From an uncultured Bacilli bacterium (GTDB lineage Bacteria > Bacillota_I > Bacilli_A > RF39 > UBA660), in contig CALVYL010000004.1 in the NCBI GenBank assembly GCA_944372215.1, positions 1 through 41,966 on the forward strand: a stretch of 41,966 bases of DNA. Reading direction: 5' to 3'. Positions 1,325 to 18,642 of the stretch are shown piece by piece; within the stretch, counting starts at the first letter, position 1, and each line of letters starts with the position of its first letter. Below the pieces are notes generated by a model. That model saw only the letters and a list, made by a program, of their open reading frames with translations. It had not been told where the DNA came from and did not search any database. A program made the translations under genes and the position numbers.

Positions 1325-4300
1325 CTATTCTACTGATTTTAATGAATCAATCATATTTACTTTTTTAAGAATAAAGTTAGTAATTATTTGAACAATTATA
1401 GTAAATATAACCATAATTACAACTGTTAAAATATAACTTAAATAATGTATTTGTTTAATGAATATTATTTCATCAGTCTCTGCAACTGTTAGAACAAAGG
1501 CATTTAGACCAATACCTAGAACTAAACCTATTAATATACCAATGATAGTTAGAATAATTGTTTCTCTATAAACATACATCGATATTTCTTTATCATTAAA
1601 ACCAAGGACTTTTAATGTAGCTATTTCTCTAGTTCTTTCTGAAATGTTAATAGTGGTTAAGTTATATAATACTGTAATAGCCAGAACTGATGAGAAGCCA
1701 ATTATTAAGAAAACTATATGGTTCATACTATCAAAAATATCTTGAAGCATTGATACACTATCTTCTGTATATTGAATATTGCTAAAATAATTACTTGCAA
1801 GAAGAGTATCACCTAAATCATTGATGTTAGCAATAATTGTGTTGTAGGAAATATCTCCAAAAACTAAATTGTAATAGTTAGTATTCATATAAACATAATT
1901 ATTAATATAATTTCTACTAATTCCAGAAATTTTTATTACATATATTTCATTGTTATTGTCTCGGAGAGTTATGGTATCACCAACCGAAACATCTAATATA
2001 TCAGCAATTTTTTCAGTAATTATTGCTCCTTCATCATCTAAAGATAAAGGATTGACATCTAAATCTTTTAAGTCATAATAATTACTAATATCATTATCCA
2101 TAAAGGCAATGGAGTAAACATCAATGTTTTTGTTATTGGCAGCAAAAGTTAATGTTTCCATGTGAGCATATAAAGGATTTTCAATATTATTATTTGCAAG
2201 TAAATTATTTATTTCGGTATTTTCTTCAGTAACACTTTCATTTAGGAATAACATAGAGTCGTATTTTTCTATTTCCCCATACTGTATATCAACAATTTTA
2301 GAAATGCTATCTTTTATACCAAAGCCTGTTAAAAGTAGGGCAGTACAACCAGATATACCAATTAGAGTCATAATGATTCTTTTTTTGTATCTAAATAAAT
2401 TTCTAATTGTAACTTTCCAAGAAAATGATATTCTTTTCCAAATAAAGTTTATTTTTTCCAGTAATACCTTACGACCATTTTTAGGACTAGCTGGTCTTAG
2501 CAGATCAGCAGGACTATTTTTAAATTTAACAGCTACAGCAATAAAGGTAACTAGAGACATGGTAATGATACAAACCTCAATTATACTTATACATATTGGA
2601 ATATTTGCATAAGTTTTTAATCCTGGAATTACATAAGCTTGAGTATAAACATTATATAGTACATGAGGTATTACTGTATAACCAATAGTTAAACCAATTA
2701 ATAAACCAAGTAAAGTCGCTAGGAGAACATAGAAAATATAACTGAATATTATTTTGAATTTACCAATTCCAAGGGATGTGAAAATACCAATTTCTGTTCT
2801 TTCTTCTTCAATCATTCTGGTCATGGTATTTAGACACATTAGGAAGGCAACAGCAATAAAAAATATTGGAAATACTGCAGCAATTGAATCAATTTTAGTA
2901 GCTGATTCTAAGAATGTTGTATATCCCGAATTATCTTCCCGGTCAAATAAATACCATTCTGGTTTTTCGAGGGTTGCAATTTCAGCTTCAGCATCAGCAA
3001 TTTCAGCTAGTCCTTGATTAATTTCTTGTTCAAATTCTGCATAATTAGCATTGTATTCTTCTAAACTTTCATTTAAAGTTCTTTGTTGTTCATCTAAAGC
3101 AGCTCTATTAGAATTTAGAGTATTTAATGTTTCGTTATATGTATTATTAAATTCTGTGCGAGCATTAGTAATTTCCGTAAAACCATTTTTTATTTCCGTT
3201 AAACTAGATAATAAAGTATTTAAATTATTAATAGTTTCCCTAGTTATTTGGTATTGTGGATTAGTTTCATCAAGTGTTGCCAGTAAATTATTTAGGTTAG
3301 TAATTTCGTTATTTAAAGCACTTATTGACTCATCTATGCTACTAGTGGTAATACCAAAATTTGTTAGAGAAGCATTAATAGTAGCTAAATTAGTATTAAT
3401 AGTAGCTTCATTAGTATCTAATTCATTTAATACTTGAGTTCTTCTTGTTTCTAATTCTTCTAAAGCATTATTTATTTGGGCATAGCCAGAGTTAATTTGG
3501 GCTTGACCATTATCTAATTCTTCTTTAGCATCACTAAATTTCTCTTCATTTTCTGCTCTTAAATTATTTATTTCTTCACGAGCATCATAGATTTCTTCCA
3601 TGGCAGCAGTTTTAATTTCTTCGTATCTAATTGTTTCTCTAATTGGTGCCAGTTCTTCAAGTTCTGTTAATAACTTATTTGTTTCTTCATCATAATCATC
3701 ACGATAACTTGTTGCATCAGTACTACCTTTAGCAATTAGATAAATTTCAGTGTAATACTCCATATTGAAATTTTCTTTGTTTATATATATAACATTATCA
3801 AGTTTGCCATCAGAAACAGTAGATATGCCAAGATTAGAATAAATATACATACTACTATTTACAGTACCAACTACTTGATAAGTATTATTTTTTAAATAAT
3901 CCCCATAATTTTCATCTTCGATTATTATAGTATCACCGATATTATATGAGCCATCTAAAACTAAACATTCATTATCTTCTTCGGGCATTCTGCCATCAAT
4001 TAAAGTAACATTGTTGATATTTTCAGTTATTCCATATATTTTAGTAGCATCGCCATCAATTACAGTTTCATAAGTATAGTTGGCATCAACAGCCTCGGCA
4101 TTATTCAAATTTTTAAGAGCAGTTAAGTCATCTTCCGTTAAGCCCATGGTACTAACAATGCGATAGTCCATTAACTTAGTTTCATCATAATATTCATCCA
4201 TAGTTCGAATCATATCGGATGATGTTTCTCTAACTCCGGCGAAAAATGCTGCTCCAATAGCAATAATTAAAATTAAAGTTATAAAACGACCTAAAGAATG

Positions 4301-16748: not shown

Positions 16749-16774
16749 AAGGTGCGCAGAGGCGCACCTTTTAT
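16749..16774 (+). terminator. Intrinsic terminator of ftsAZ
   Basis: A 9-bp GC-rich stem AAGGTGCGC / GCGCACCTT (16749-16757, 16762-16770) closes an AGAG loop and runs into TTAT. Confidence 0.85.
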
Positions 16775-17078: not shown

Positions 17079-17963
17079 ATGAATTATTATAGCGAAATTA
17101 AAAATGAATTAATAAATAATGAAATAACTAAAAAAGTAAAAGATTATAGTAAGAACAAAAGTGATTTAACTACTTATTATAATGTTGGAAAATTATTAAG
17201 TGAAGCTGGTAAGCATTATAGTGATGGGATAATTAATGAATACTCTAAAAGATTAACTAATGAATTAGGTAAAGGATATAGCAAAAGAAATTTATGGTTA
17301 ATGTTACGACTTTTTAAATTGCGAGAAAAAATGCAGACAGTGTCTGCACTATTATCTTGGAGTCATTATGTTGAATTGCTATCAATTGATAATATAGATG
17401 AAATTAATTATTACATAATGATTACAGAACAACAAAATCTTTCAGTTAGACAATTAAGAGAAAAAATAAAAAATAAAGAATATGAAAGATTAGATGATAC
17501 TACTAAAGATAAATTAACAAATAATACTACTCCAGTAGTAACAGATTTTATTAAAAATCCAATTGCTATTAAAAATAATACTAGCAAAGAAATAATTTCA
17601 GAAAAAATATTACAAAAAGTTATACTTGAGAATATTCCTAGCTTTTTAGATGAATTGGGTACTGGTTTTACTTTTATAAGAAATGAATACAAAATTAAAA
17701 TAGGTAATAAATATAACTATATAGATTTACTTTTATATAATATTGAATTCAATTGTTATGTTGTTGTTGAACTAAAAGTAACTGAATTTAAAAAAGAACA
17801 TATTGGTCAAATAGAAATATATATGAACTATATTGATAAAACCCTAAGAAAAATAAATCAAGATAAAACAATTGGAATTATCATATGTAAGAAAGATAAT
17901 AAGTTTATAATGGAATATTGCAGTGATGATAGAATACTTGCTAGAGAATATATAGAAATATAA
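17079..17963 (+). CDS. DUF1016 / YhcG-family PD-(D/E)XK nuclease-like protein
   Basis: The 294-residue product has the DUF1016 N-terminal domain (about 1-150, with SWSHYVELLSI) and a C-terminal PD-(D/E)XK nuclease-like domain. The latter shows NYIDLLLYN, then VVVELK and IGQIEIYMNYID; Asp, Glu and Lys of the catalytic set are visible. The ATG at 17079 is preferred over one six codons earlier because the second copy starts at the same point; GGTGG lies just upstream. Family members are associated with DNA processing and defence-like islands, but no reaction is firmly established. The second copy begins ten bases after the stop. A 17-nt palindrome lies inside the variable part (17332-17348). Confidence 0.88.
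   Translation: MNYYSEIKNELINNEITKKVKDYSKNKSDLTTYYNVGKLLSEAGKHYSDGIINEYSKRLTNELGKGYSKRNLWLMLRLFKLREKMQTVSALLSWSHYVELLSIDNIDEINYYIMITEQQNLSVRQLREKIKNKEYERLDDTTKDKLTNNTTPVVTDFIKNPIAIKNNTSKEIISEKILQKVILENIPSFLDELGTGFTFIRNEYKIKIGNKYNYIDLLLYNIEFNCYVVVELKVTEFKKEHIGQIEIYMNYIDKTLRKINQDKTIGIIICKKDNKFIMEYCSDDRILAREYIEI
17332..17348. repeat. Perfect palindrome inside DUF1016 copy 1
   Basis: TGCAGACA-G-TGTCTGCA: two perfect 8-bp arms around a single G, which is the first base of the Val88 codon. A different but equally perfect palindrome occupies the same codon positions in copy 2. Confidence 0.95.
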
Positions 17964-17973
17964 AGGAGGGATT

Positions 17974-18642
17974 ATGAATTATTATAGTGAAATAAAAAAT
18001 GAATTAATAAATAATGAAATAACTAAAAAAGTAAAAGATTATAGTAAGAACAAAAGTGATTTAACTACTTATTATAATGTTGGAAAATTATTAAGTGAAG
18101 CTGGTAAACATTATGGTGAAGGTATTATTAAAGACTATTCTAAGAAATTAACTAAAGAACTTGGAAGAGGATATTCTAACACTAGACTTAAATATATGAG
18201 ACAATTTTATTTATTTGCTTCAAAAAGTCCGTCAGTGACGGACCTTTTAAGTTATACTCATTATTGTGAATTAATTTGGTTTGAAGATGTTAATAAAATT
18301 AATTACTATATAAAAATTTGTATTGAACAAAATTTGTCGGTTAGACAATTAAGAGAAAAAATAAAAAATAAAGAATATGAAAGATTAGATGATACTACTA
18401 AAGATAAATTGATAAATAATACTATTCCAGTGGTAACAGATTTTATTAAAAATCCTATTGCCATTAAAAATACTACTAATAAAGAGATAATTTCTGAAAA
18501 AGTACTACAAAGAATTATTCTTGAAGATTTAGATAATTTTTTAAAAGAATTAGGTAATTCATTTTGTTACATTGCTAATGAGTACAAAATTAAAATAGGT
18601 AATAGATATAACTATTTTGCTAAAGAATATTTAATAATTTAA
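17974..18642 (+). CDS. DUF1016-family paralogue lacking the nuclease core
   Basis: Tandem duplicate of the preceding gene, 222 residues, with a strong RBS (AAAGGAGGG). Residues 1-43 are identical to copy 1, the middle (about 69-120) is strongly divergent (for example TRLKYMRQFYLF), and residues about 120-165 are again near-identical. At YNY the frame jumps to FAKEYLII, which matches the copy 1 ending LAREYIEI. The net loss is exactly 72 residues and removes the whole D...ELK...Q catalytic core while keeping the tail. The product may be a non-catalytic partner or decaying. No other coding change breaks the frame. Confidence 0.8.
   Translation: MNYYSEIKNELINNEITKKVKDYSKNKSDLTTYYNVGKLLSEAGKHYGEGIIKDYSKKLTKELGRGYSNTRLKYMRQFYLFASKSPSVTDLLSYTHYCELIWFEDVNKINYYIKICIEQNLSVRQLREKIKNKEYERLDDTTKDKLINNTIPVVTDFIKNPIAIKNTTNKEIISEKVLQRIILEDLDNFLKELGNSFCYIANEYKIKIGNRYNYFAKEYLII
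18227..18243. repeat. Perfect palindrome inside DUF1016 copy 2
   Basis: GTCCGTCA-G-TGACGGAC lies at the same distance from the start codon (253 bases) as the palindrome in copy 1. Four of the eight arm positions differ from copy 1, and every change is compensated in the other arm. Confidence 0.95.

Follow-up and report, generated by a model that had tools for sequence, protein, structure and literature searches.

The ParB–parS and Noc–NBS systems pair a DNA-binding domain with palindromic sites on which its structure has been solved, and a parS site lies within spo0J itself. In autoregulating repressors, such as phage repressors and the C proteins of restriction-modification systems, a helix-turn-helix protein co-evolves with a linked palindromic operator. 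Homing endonucleases are site-specific nucleases with long recognition sites; their genes are found on mobile elements, and the homing gene splits the site that its product recognises. Palindromes also occur within protein-coding genes as the Rickettsia palindromic elements (RPEs), which are 100–150 nt long and scattered through many genes (PMC4316617). In ParB and Noc, at position 173, the start of the recognition helix, arginine reads G and glutamine reads A (PMC7383237).

The YhcG/DUF1016 family spans bacterial phyla and archaea and includes E. coli yhcG; its function is so far unassigned. The N-terminal domain of YhcG has been called 'unknown, mainly alpha-helical' (PMC1189080), and deleting yhcG was reported to cause synthetic lethality in combination with weakened parE, dnaN and dnaB (PMC2672614). 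The protein family and its nuclease fold are both familiar, as is DNA reading of the ParB type. In the literature searched, from which subscription papers and most preprints fell outside, we found no report of a DNA site, a palindrome or an N-domain fold of YhcG/DUF1016, nor of a nuclease family with its own co-evolving recognition sites in coding sequences. Here we describe two adjacent members of the family and their palindromes in a stretch of 41,966 nucleotides from an uncultured Bacilli bacterium (contig CALVYL010000004.1, forward strand; hereafter the window), and compare them with relatives across bacteria, archaea and viral contigs.

Two adjacent genes with palindromes at the same codon

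Both genes lie on the forward strand of the window and are members of the YhcG/DUF1016 family by sequence (PF17761 and PF06250 in Pfam, PDC-S02 in PADLOC). Copy 1 (17079–17963, 294 aa) comprises a DUF1016_N domain and a PD-(D/E)XK YhcG_C domain and scores above the Pfam gathering level for PF17761 (87.2 bits, 1.4e-24) and PF06250 (127.7 bits, 4.8e-37). Copy 2 (17974–18642, 222 aa) also scores above it, with 87.9 bits for PF17761 and 35.6 bits for PF06250, the nuclease part of the latter being truncated. The model of the phage-defence candidate PDC-S02 was matched at 8e-62; the defence role is putative, the papers found on it being correlative. Pfam and comparison with copy 1 show that most of the nuclease domain of copy 2 is deleted: about 210 bases of coding sequence are gone, ...NRYNYF is joined to AKEYLII, and the catalytic D and the E-x-K region are absent.

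The palindrome of copy 1 (ATG at 17079) is TGCAGACA-G-TGTCTGCA at 17332–17348, and that of copy 2 (ATG at 17974) is GTCCGTCA-G-TGACGGAC at 18227–18243. The original prediction, made from the letters of the window, had these sequences and coordinates exactly. Each palindrome begins 253 bases past the ATG and, as had also been stated, has its centre in both copies at the first base of the GTG that forms codon 88. Of the eight arm letters, four differ between the copies, and the opposite arm matches each time, which bears out the compensated change that had been claimed. The functional unit is longer than first noted. It extends over 17328–17352 in copy 1 (centre 17340), as delimited by the alignment of 146 sites described below, and over 18223–18247 in the sequence of copy 2 (centre 18235), with a fixed A at −12 (17328 and 18223) and a fixed T at +12 (17352 and 18247). 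The palindrome of copy 2 is still perfect. With its self-site and its recognition helix retained, copy 2 may be a DNA-binding-only paralogue or a decaying copy. Elsewhere in the window, a hairpin (AAGGTGCGC-AGAG-GCGCACCTT, 16749–16770) lies directly 3' of ftsZ and is likely to be the ftsZ terminator.

Anatomy of the site

Alignment of 146 unique sites on their centres gave the dyad consensus RAWWN-N6-CR-n-YG-N6-NWWTY, with a length of 25–27 bp. Counted outwards from the centre, offset 1 is R..Y and unpaired (AT 97, GT 20, AC 19, GC 6), and offset 2 is a fixed C..G in 139 of the 146 sites. The letters at offsets 3–8 vary and are 95–98% complementary. Offsets 9–11 are often unpaired, with W..W that does not pair at offsets 10–11; offset 12 is A..T in 145 of 146 sites and offset 13 is R..Y. 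Mismatches within offsets 2–8 are A.C in 21 cases versus G.T in 4. Codon phase is 0 in 174 of 181 sites. The excess of A.C over G.T mismatches, the unpaired offsets 10–11 and the fixed offset 12 together argue for a duplex read by a symmetric dimer rather than for a stem. The anatomy thus fits a palindrome that is read as double-stranded DNA, presumably by a dimer.

The original prediction had pointed instead to a DNA cruciform or an RNA hairpin, and the mismatch counts and the pattern of offsets 9–12 speak against both. An mRNA hairpin that is read by a protein or slows translation would benefit from the arms of up to 17 bp, which would give stable hairpins, and the site lies within the transcribed strand in most genes. 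A structured RNA should however show G-U as well as Watson–Crick changes, and the observed mismatches are the opposite of G-U tolerance; offsets 10–11 remain unpaired while offset 12 is fixed, and some copies of the site lie upstream of the start codon or past the stop codon. We therefore regard an mRNA hairpin as very improbable.

Selection on the DNA letters beyond coding

When codons were resampled with per-gene usage and the protein was kept, 1.6 of the 146 genes were expected to be perfect at all seven offsets from 2 to 8; the observed number is 108, in a set preselected for at least 6/7, so that 108/146 is not a prevalence. In the genus alone, 40 of 57 cores are perfect versus 0.7 expected under the same resampling. 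Codon choice within the site is similarly skewed. The centre Val codon is GTG in 46 of 46 cases (6.8 expected from the same genes), the centre Leu codon is CTG in 66 of 71 (9.3 expected), Leu at +12 is TTR in 93 of 93 (52.8 expected) and Thr at −3 is ACR in 104 of 105 (46.6 expected). In 103 genes of the wide sweep, the density of palindromes is 7.8 per kb in the loop, defined as the stretch from the recognition helix to the W-S-x-Y motif, whereas the remainder of the gene has 0.19 per kb and the flanks have 0.31. The view that coding does not force the palindrome is thus upheld: palindromes are far commoner than in the codon-resampled controls. Synonymous resampling, the codon tests and the silent-position test described below rule out coding constraint alone.

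A code between recognition helix and site

The protein segment that precedes the site has the form G-[FY]-s0-x1-x2-N-L-x3-x4-M-R. Among 134 non-redundant pairs of segment and site, the mutual information between x3 and base −8 is 0.85 bit above shuffles (z 21) and that between x2 and base −7 is 0.61 bit (z 17). The corresponding values are 0.44 and 0.45 bit for x4 with bases −6 and −5, and 0.37–0.50 bit for s0 with bases −6 to −4. Individual residues go with individual letters. At x3, K is accompanied by G at −8 in 19 of 19 pairs, F, Y or W by T in 24 of 24, E by C in 18 of 22, R by G in 17 of 29, and Q by G or A. At x2, R goes with G at −7 in 34 of 41 pairs, T with T in 23 of 27 and Q with C in 9 of 10. 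The letters of both window genes fit this code. The recognition helix of copy 1 (residues 69–81, K-R-N-L-W-L-M..., 17283–17321), assigned from an AlphaFold2 model and from mutual information with the site bases, has R70 as x2 with G at −7 and W73 as x3 with T at −8. That of copy 2 (N-T-R-L-K-Y-M..., 18178–18216), placed by homology to copy 1, has K as x3 with G at −8 and T as x2 with T at −7.

The code can be carried from one set of genes to another. A table derived from the wide set is right about base −8 for 46 of the 51 genes from the window's phylum, where the best constant guess would score 24, and prediction in the opposite direction, from the window-phylum genes to the wide set, also works; the phyla of the two sets are mostly, not strictly, different. 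For base +8, which falls on the silent third position of codon +6, x3 gives the correct letter in 75 of 95 four-fold cases versus 33±4.4 when x3 is shuffled within residue. Since a silent base is predicted from x3, the correlation between helix and site is not one between protein and protein. In 65 disjoint sister pairs picked by the nuclease domain, changes in the class of x3 coincide with changes at base −8 (26/6 versus 3/30, odds ratio 43, p=2e-9), and changes in x2 with those at base −7 (18/8 versus 13/26, p=0.005). The association is weaker in off-diagonal controls (p about 0.02). In one pair of genes with 97% identity (L114/L113), x2 changes from Q to R and base −7 changes with it, C being replaced by G; x3 and base −8 are identical in the two genes. 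Cross-lineage prediction and the disjoint sister pairs rule out shared descent as the sole cause of the correlation. Mutual information, the silent base and the sister pairs strongly support the conclusion that the protein helix and the gene's own site evolve together by a readable code; the original prediction had raised, as one hypothesis, a self-recognition site that co-evolves with the specificity of the nuclease-like protein.

The code also bears on the cruciform, in which the palindrome would be kept as a four-way junction cut by a resolvase-like nuclease domain. The PD-(D/E)XK domain has been likened to Holliday-junction resolvases (PMC1189080), and the arms are long and perfect. A cruciform does not account for site letters that track the recognition helix, and unpaired offsets 9–11 inside a fixed offset 12 are unexpected for a stem. 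We find this reading highly unlikely.

Predicted structure of the protein

In the AlphaFold2 model of copy 1 (mean pLDDT 86.7), helices 49–63 (17223–17267) and 69–81 form a helix-turn-helix within a ParB/Noc-like fold. Residues 68, 69, 70, 73 and 74, which correspond to s0, x1, x2, x3 and x4, lie on one face of the second helix, and the residues encoded by the site form the loop preceding helix 94–100. Comparison with VIA-align matched residues 1–138 to ParB–parS, Spo0J–parS and Noc–NBS complexes (6t1f, 4umk, 6y93, 6s6h) at Z 8–9, a match at the level of the fold only and of modest, mid-range score. Among the VIA-align matches listed for the N domain, ParB/Noc was the one family that stood out. 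The modest Z gains weight from the palindromic sites that ParB and Noc read and from their use of arginine for G, which parallels x2. Searches of PDB sequences with the single protein gave nothing useful, and a profile of 69 family members, at sequence level, recovered no ParB at E up to 5, so that any homology to ParB would be distant; the fold search alone gave matches. The ParB_N CTP-binding domain was not found by Pfam, and the protein of copy 1 starts with the DNA-binding domain. Given no sequence match to ParB and no ParB_N domain, we do not class the family as ParB.

The nuclease domain of copy 1, assigned from Pfam, the AlphaFold2 model and the fold search (residues 162–294, 17562–17960), matches EndoMS/NucS at Z 12.7. 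It has D216 and E231-L-K233 in the nuclease fold and is a predicted PD-(D/E)XK nuclease. Shedu SduA was also among the fold matches (Z 8, with a poor rmsd). In the predicted structure, DUF1016_N is thus a DNA-binding domain of the ParB/Noc type, and the nuclease to which it is joined resembles EndoMS/NucS.

Distribution across the family and within genomes

DUF1016 was matched a dozen times in the source genome (1.01 Mb in 68 contigs, 73.5% complete), and most of these matches form tandem arrays, on contigs C4 (the window), C40 and C45. Several copies in this genome have palindromes that are longer still at this position, among them AATTGTTGGCACA-C-TGTGCCAACAATT, TCAAAATATCCGTCA-G-TGACGGATATTTTGA and GATAAATTGGTCGCCA-T-TGGCGACCAATTTATC. 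Most of 80 distinct motif-bearing genes of the genus have a palindrome, with dozens of arm sequences, and the wide sweep added genes from Proteobacteria, Acidobacteria, Cyanobacteria, Planctomycetes, Chloroflexi, Bacteroidota, Elusimicrobia, archaea and viral contigs. Absence from other members, which the original prediction had named as evidence against itself, is not what we found: when sites are scored on a 12-point scale, 206 of the 238 sampled DUF1016_N genes have one in the ORF and 6 more in a flank only. Several of the remaining 26 have palindromes of variant centre.

The linkage of the sites to the family is nearly exclusive. The copy 1 site occurs once in the source genome with up to 2 mismatches allowed, and the copy 2 site only in copy 2 itself and in its nearest paralogue. 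The commonest class, AWWNNNCAGACRNYGTCTGNNNWWT, has 32 matches in 20 other genomes (93 Mb) versus 0 for the control, and all 32 are inside ORFs with a DUF1016_N match. Under a strict letter-free definition, all loci together have 191 distinct sites inside DUF1016 ORFs and 15 elsewhere; two controls gave 0. Most of the 15 lie no further than about 550 bp from a DUF1016 gene, before or after it, and flanking copies are equally often 3' and 5' of the gene. The family is present on plasmids and phages.

In one subgroup (L016/L021, L019, L020) the gene itself contains no site, and its flanks hold several even-centred palindromes, with no central base and the same half-site layout (L016:2246–2683 and 3879–3908; L019:1100–1123, 1315–1334 and 2497–2713; L020:2139–2355). 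Genes of the KNNAYRKVNEE type (L068, L070, L076, L043) have intact sites 70–520 bp outside the ORF, on the upstream side in 3 of these loci and on the downstream side in 1. In L149, L173, L151, L176 and others, the loop holds 2–3 palindromes whose offset-7 letters differ (A, C, G, T) and which look like accumulated sites of other specificities.

Short mobile palindromic elements, similar to RPEs and inserted in frame at a tolerant loop, would accord with the 2–3 loop copies in several genes and with a 78–80 bp block, containing two palindromes, by which E. coli strains differ. A dispersed repeat would be expected in many unrelated genes; the sites are confined to DUF1016 genes or their close flanks, and the genome scans rule such a repeat out. 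The placement of every AWWNNNCAGACRNYGTCTGNNNWWT match inside a DUF1016 gene, the fixed position and codon phase, and letters that track the helix make mobile elements a barely credible source of the sites.

Exchange of helix and site, and paralogues within genomes

In the E. coli K-12 yhcG gene, three palindromes occupy the homologous position (L088:6116–6240), and a fourth lies 16 bases past the stop codon. The core of this post-stop palindrome, TGCAGACAGTGTCTGCA, is identical to the core of window copy 1. The noncoding site after yhcG exists as TGCAGACA-G/C-TGTCTGCA and as TCCAGACA-C-TGTCTGGA in near-identical flanks, the variants being compared with outer bases counted from the same start. 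The change between them is compensated, from G.C to C.G at offset 7, and lies outside any protein. The central base of this palindrome is G or C depending on the strain (L091 and L270 versus L088), which could reflect either a point mutation or an inversion of the palindrome. Some O157 and O111 strains (L092, L093, L095) lack 78–80 bp holding two of the three yhcG palindromes; the loss is in frame in O157 strain 611 and annotated as frameshifted in others.

The two window copies are 97–100% identical over their first 120 bases, 55–63% over bases 181–360, which contain helix and site, and 83–95% over bases 361–540. E. coli K-12 and ECE204 show a similar profile: identity is 58–70% over bases 241–420 and 87–90% from there to base 540, with 95–100% outside. 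These profiles show that the segment of helix and site is swapped as one cassette. The original prediction had spoken of a self-recognition or recombination site; the data strongly support self-recognition and do not show a recombination site, though the cassette of helix plus site is exchanged.

Paralogues of one genome do not share half-sites. The count is 0 of 229 pairs versus 5.4 expected (p=0.0018), a deficit that may partly reflect near-identical copies collapsed in short-read assemblies; among pairs from different genomes, 67 of 2621 share a half-site.

Proposed mechanism

Each palindrome is very probably bound, as double-stranded DNA, by the protein of the same gene. Two protein subunits would each read one half-site, with residues at the start and in the middle of the recognition helix picking the letters at offsets 4–8, and invariant parts of the domain reading the fixed C at offset 2 and the A/T at offset 12. 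Lying within about 100 bases of each other, helix and site form a single specificity cassette that is passed on and swapped as a whole, and the paralogues of one genome differ in specificity. The nuclease may tether to its own gene and repress or limit the expression of that gene in cis, a control that would move with the gene whatever promoter the gene lands behind. The output we favour, by a small measure, is self-control in cis, in which a potentially harmful nuclease would be repressed or tethered; it fits the gene linkage, the insulation of paralogues and the transfer between hosts. Flank sites are as often 3' as 5', and a simple promoter operator does not account for them. In many genes the 2–3 sites differ in their offset-7 letters, so the match between helix and site is not strict for extra copies.

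Alternatively, the site could serve as a self-tag that marks the gene, with the nuclease attacking other DNA that carries the same site, such as competing copies, plasmids and prophages, so that copies of the same specificity would be incompatible in one cell. The absence of a common half-site among paralogues, the presence of the family on plasmids and phages together with its PADLOC candidacy, and sites that are internal, 5' and 3' of the gene are all in line with this. Against it, the gene's own copy would also be cut unless a methylase or some other means protected it, and copy 2 still has a perfect site after the loss of its nuclease domain. We consider such exclusion rather unlikely. The synthetic lethality of the yhcG deletion points to DNA metabolism without deciding between self-control and self-tagging.

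Several known systems resemble DUF1016 in part, and it differs from each of them. The family shares with ParB and Noc the predicted fold, and variable residues of the recognition helix set its predicted specificity, with arginine for G as in those proteins (PMC7383237). Unlike ParB and Noc, it lacks the ParB_N/CTPase domain in Pfam and a sequence match to ParB and is fused to a nuclease, and its sites, very diverse in their letters, lie in or beside their own gene and not around the origin. As in autoregulating repressors, the protein co-evolves with a linked palindromic site; in contrast to them, the DUF1016 site is intragenic and translated, flank sites may be 3', and the protein carries a nuclease domain. 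The predicted site-specific nuclease, the long recognition site and the occurrence on mobile elements resemble homing endonucleases, whereas the DUF1016 dyad is intact within the gene. RPEs likewise lie within protein-coding genes, but the DUF1016 sites are about 25 bp long and restricted to one family.

Implications for the family

Beyond repression, DUF1016 proteins could be self-addressed nucleases: the coding sequence of each gene would spell the address for its own product, helix and address would alter as a unit, and arrays of paralogues would be mutually blind, acting in self/non-self discrimination or copy competition. We offer this broader role as a tentative suggestion. One coding sequence would carry two messages, the protein and a predicted binding site, with selection that can be measured. 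Because each protein comes naturally paired with its site, the family also offers data from which the DNA choice of helix-turn-helix proteins may be learned. As these genes name their own target, the function of yhcG becomes directly testable.
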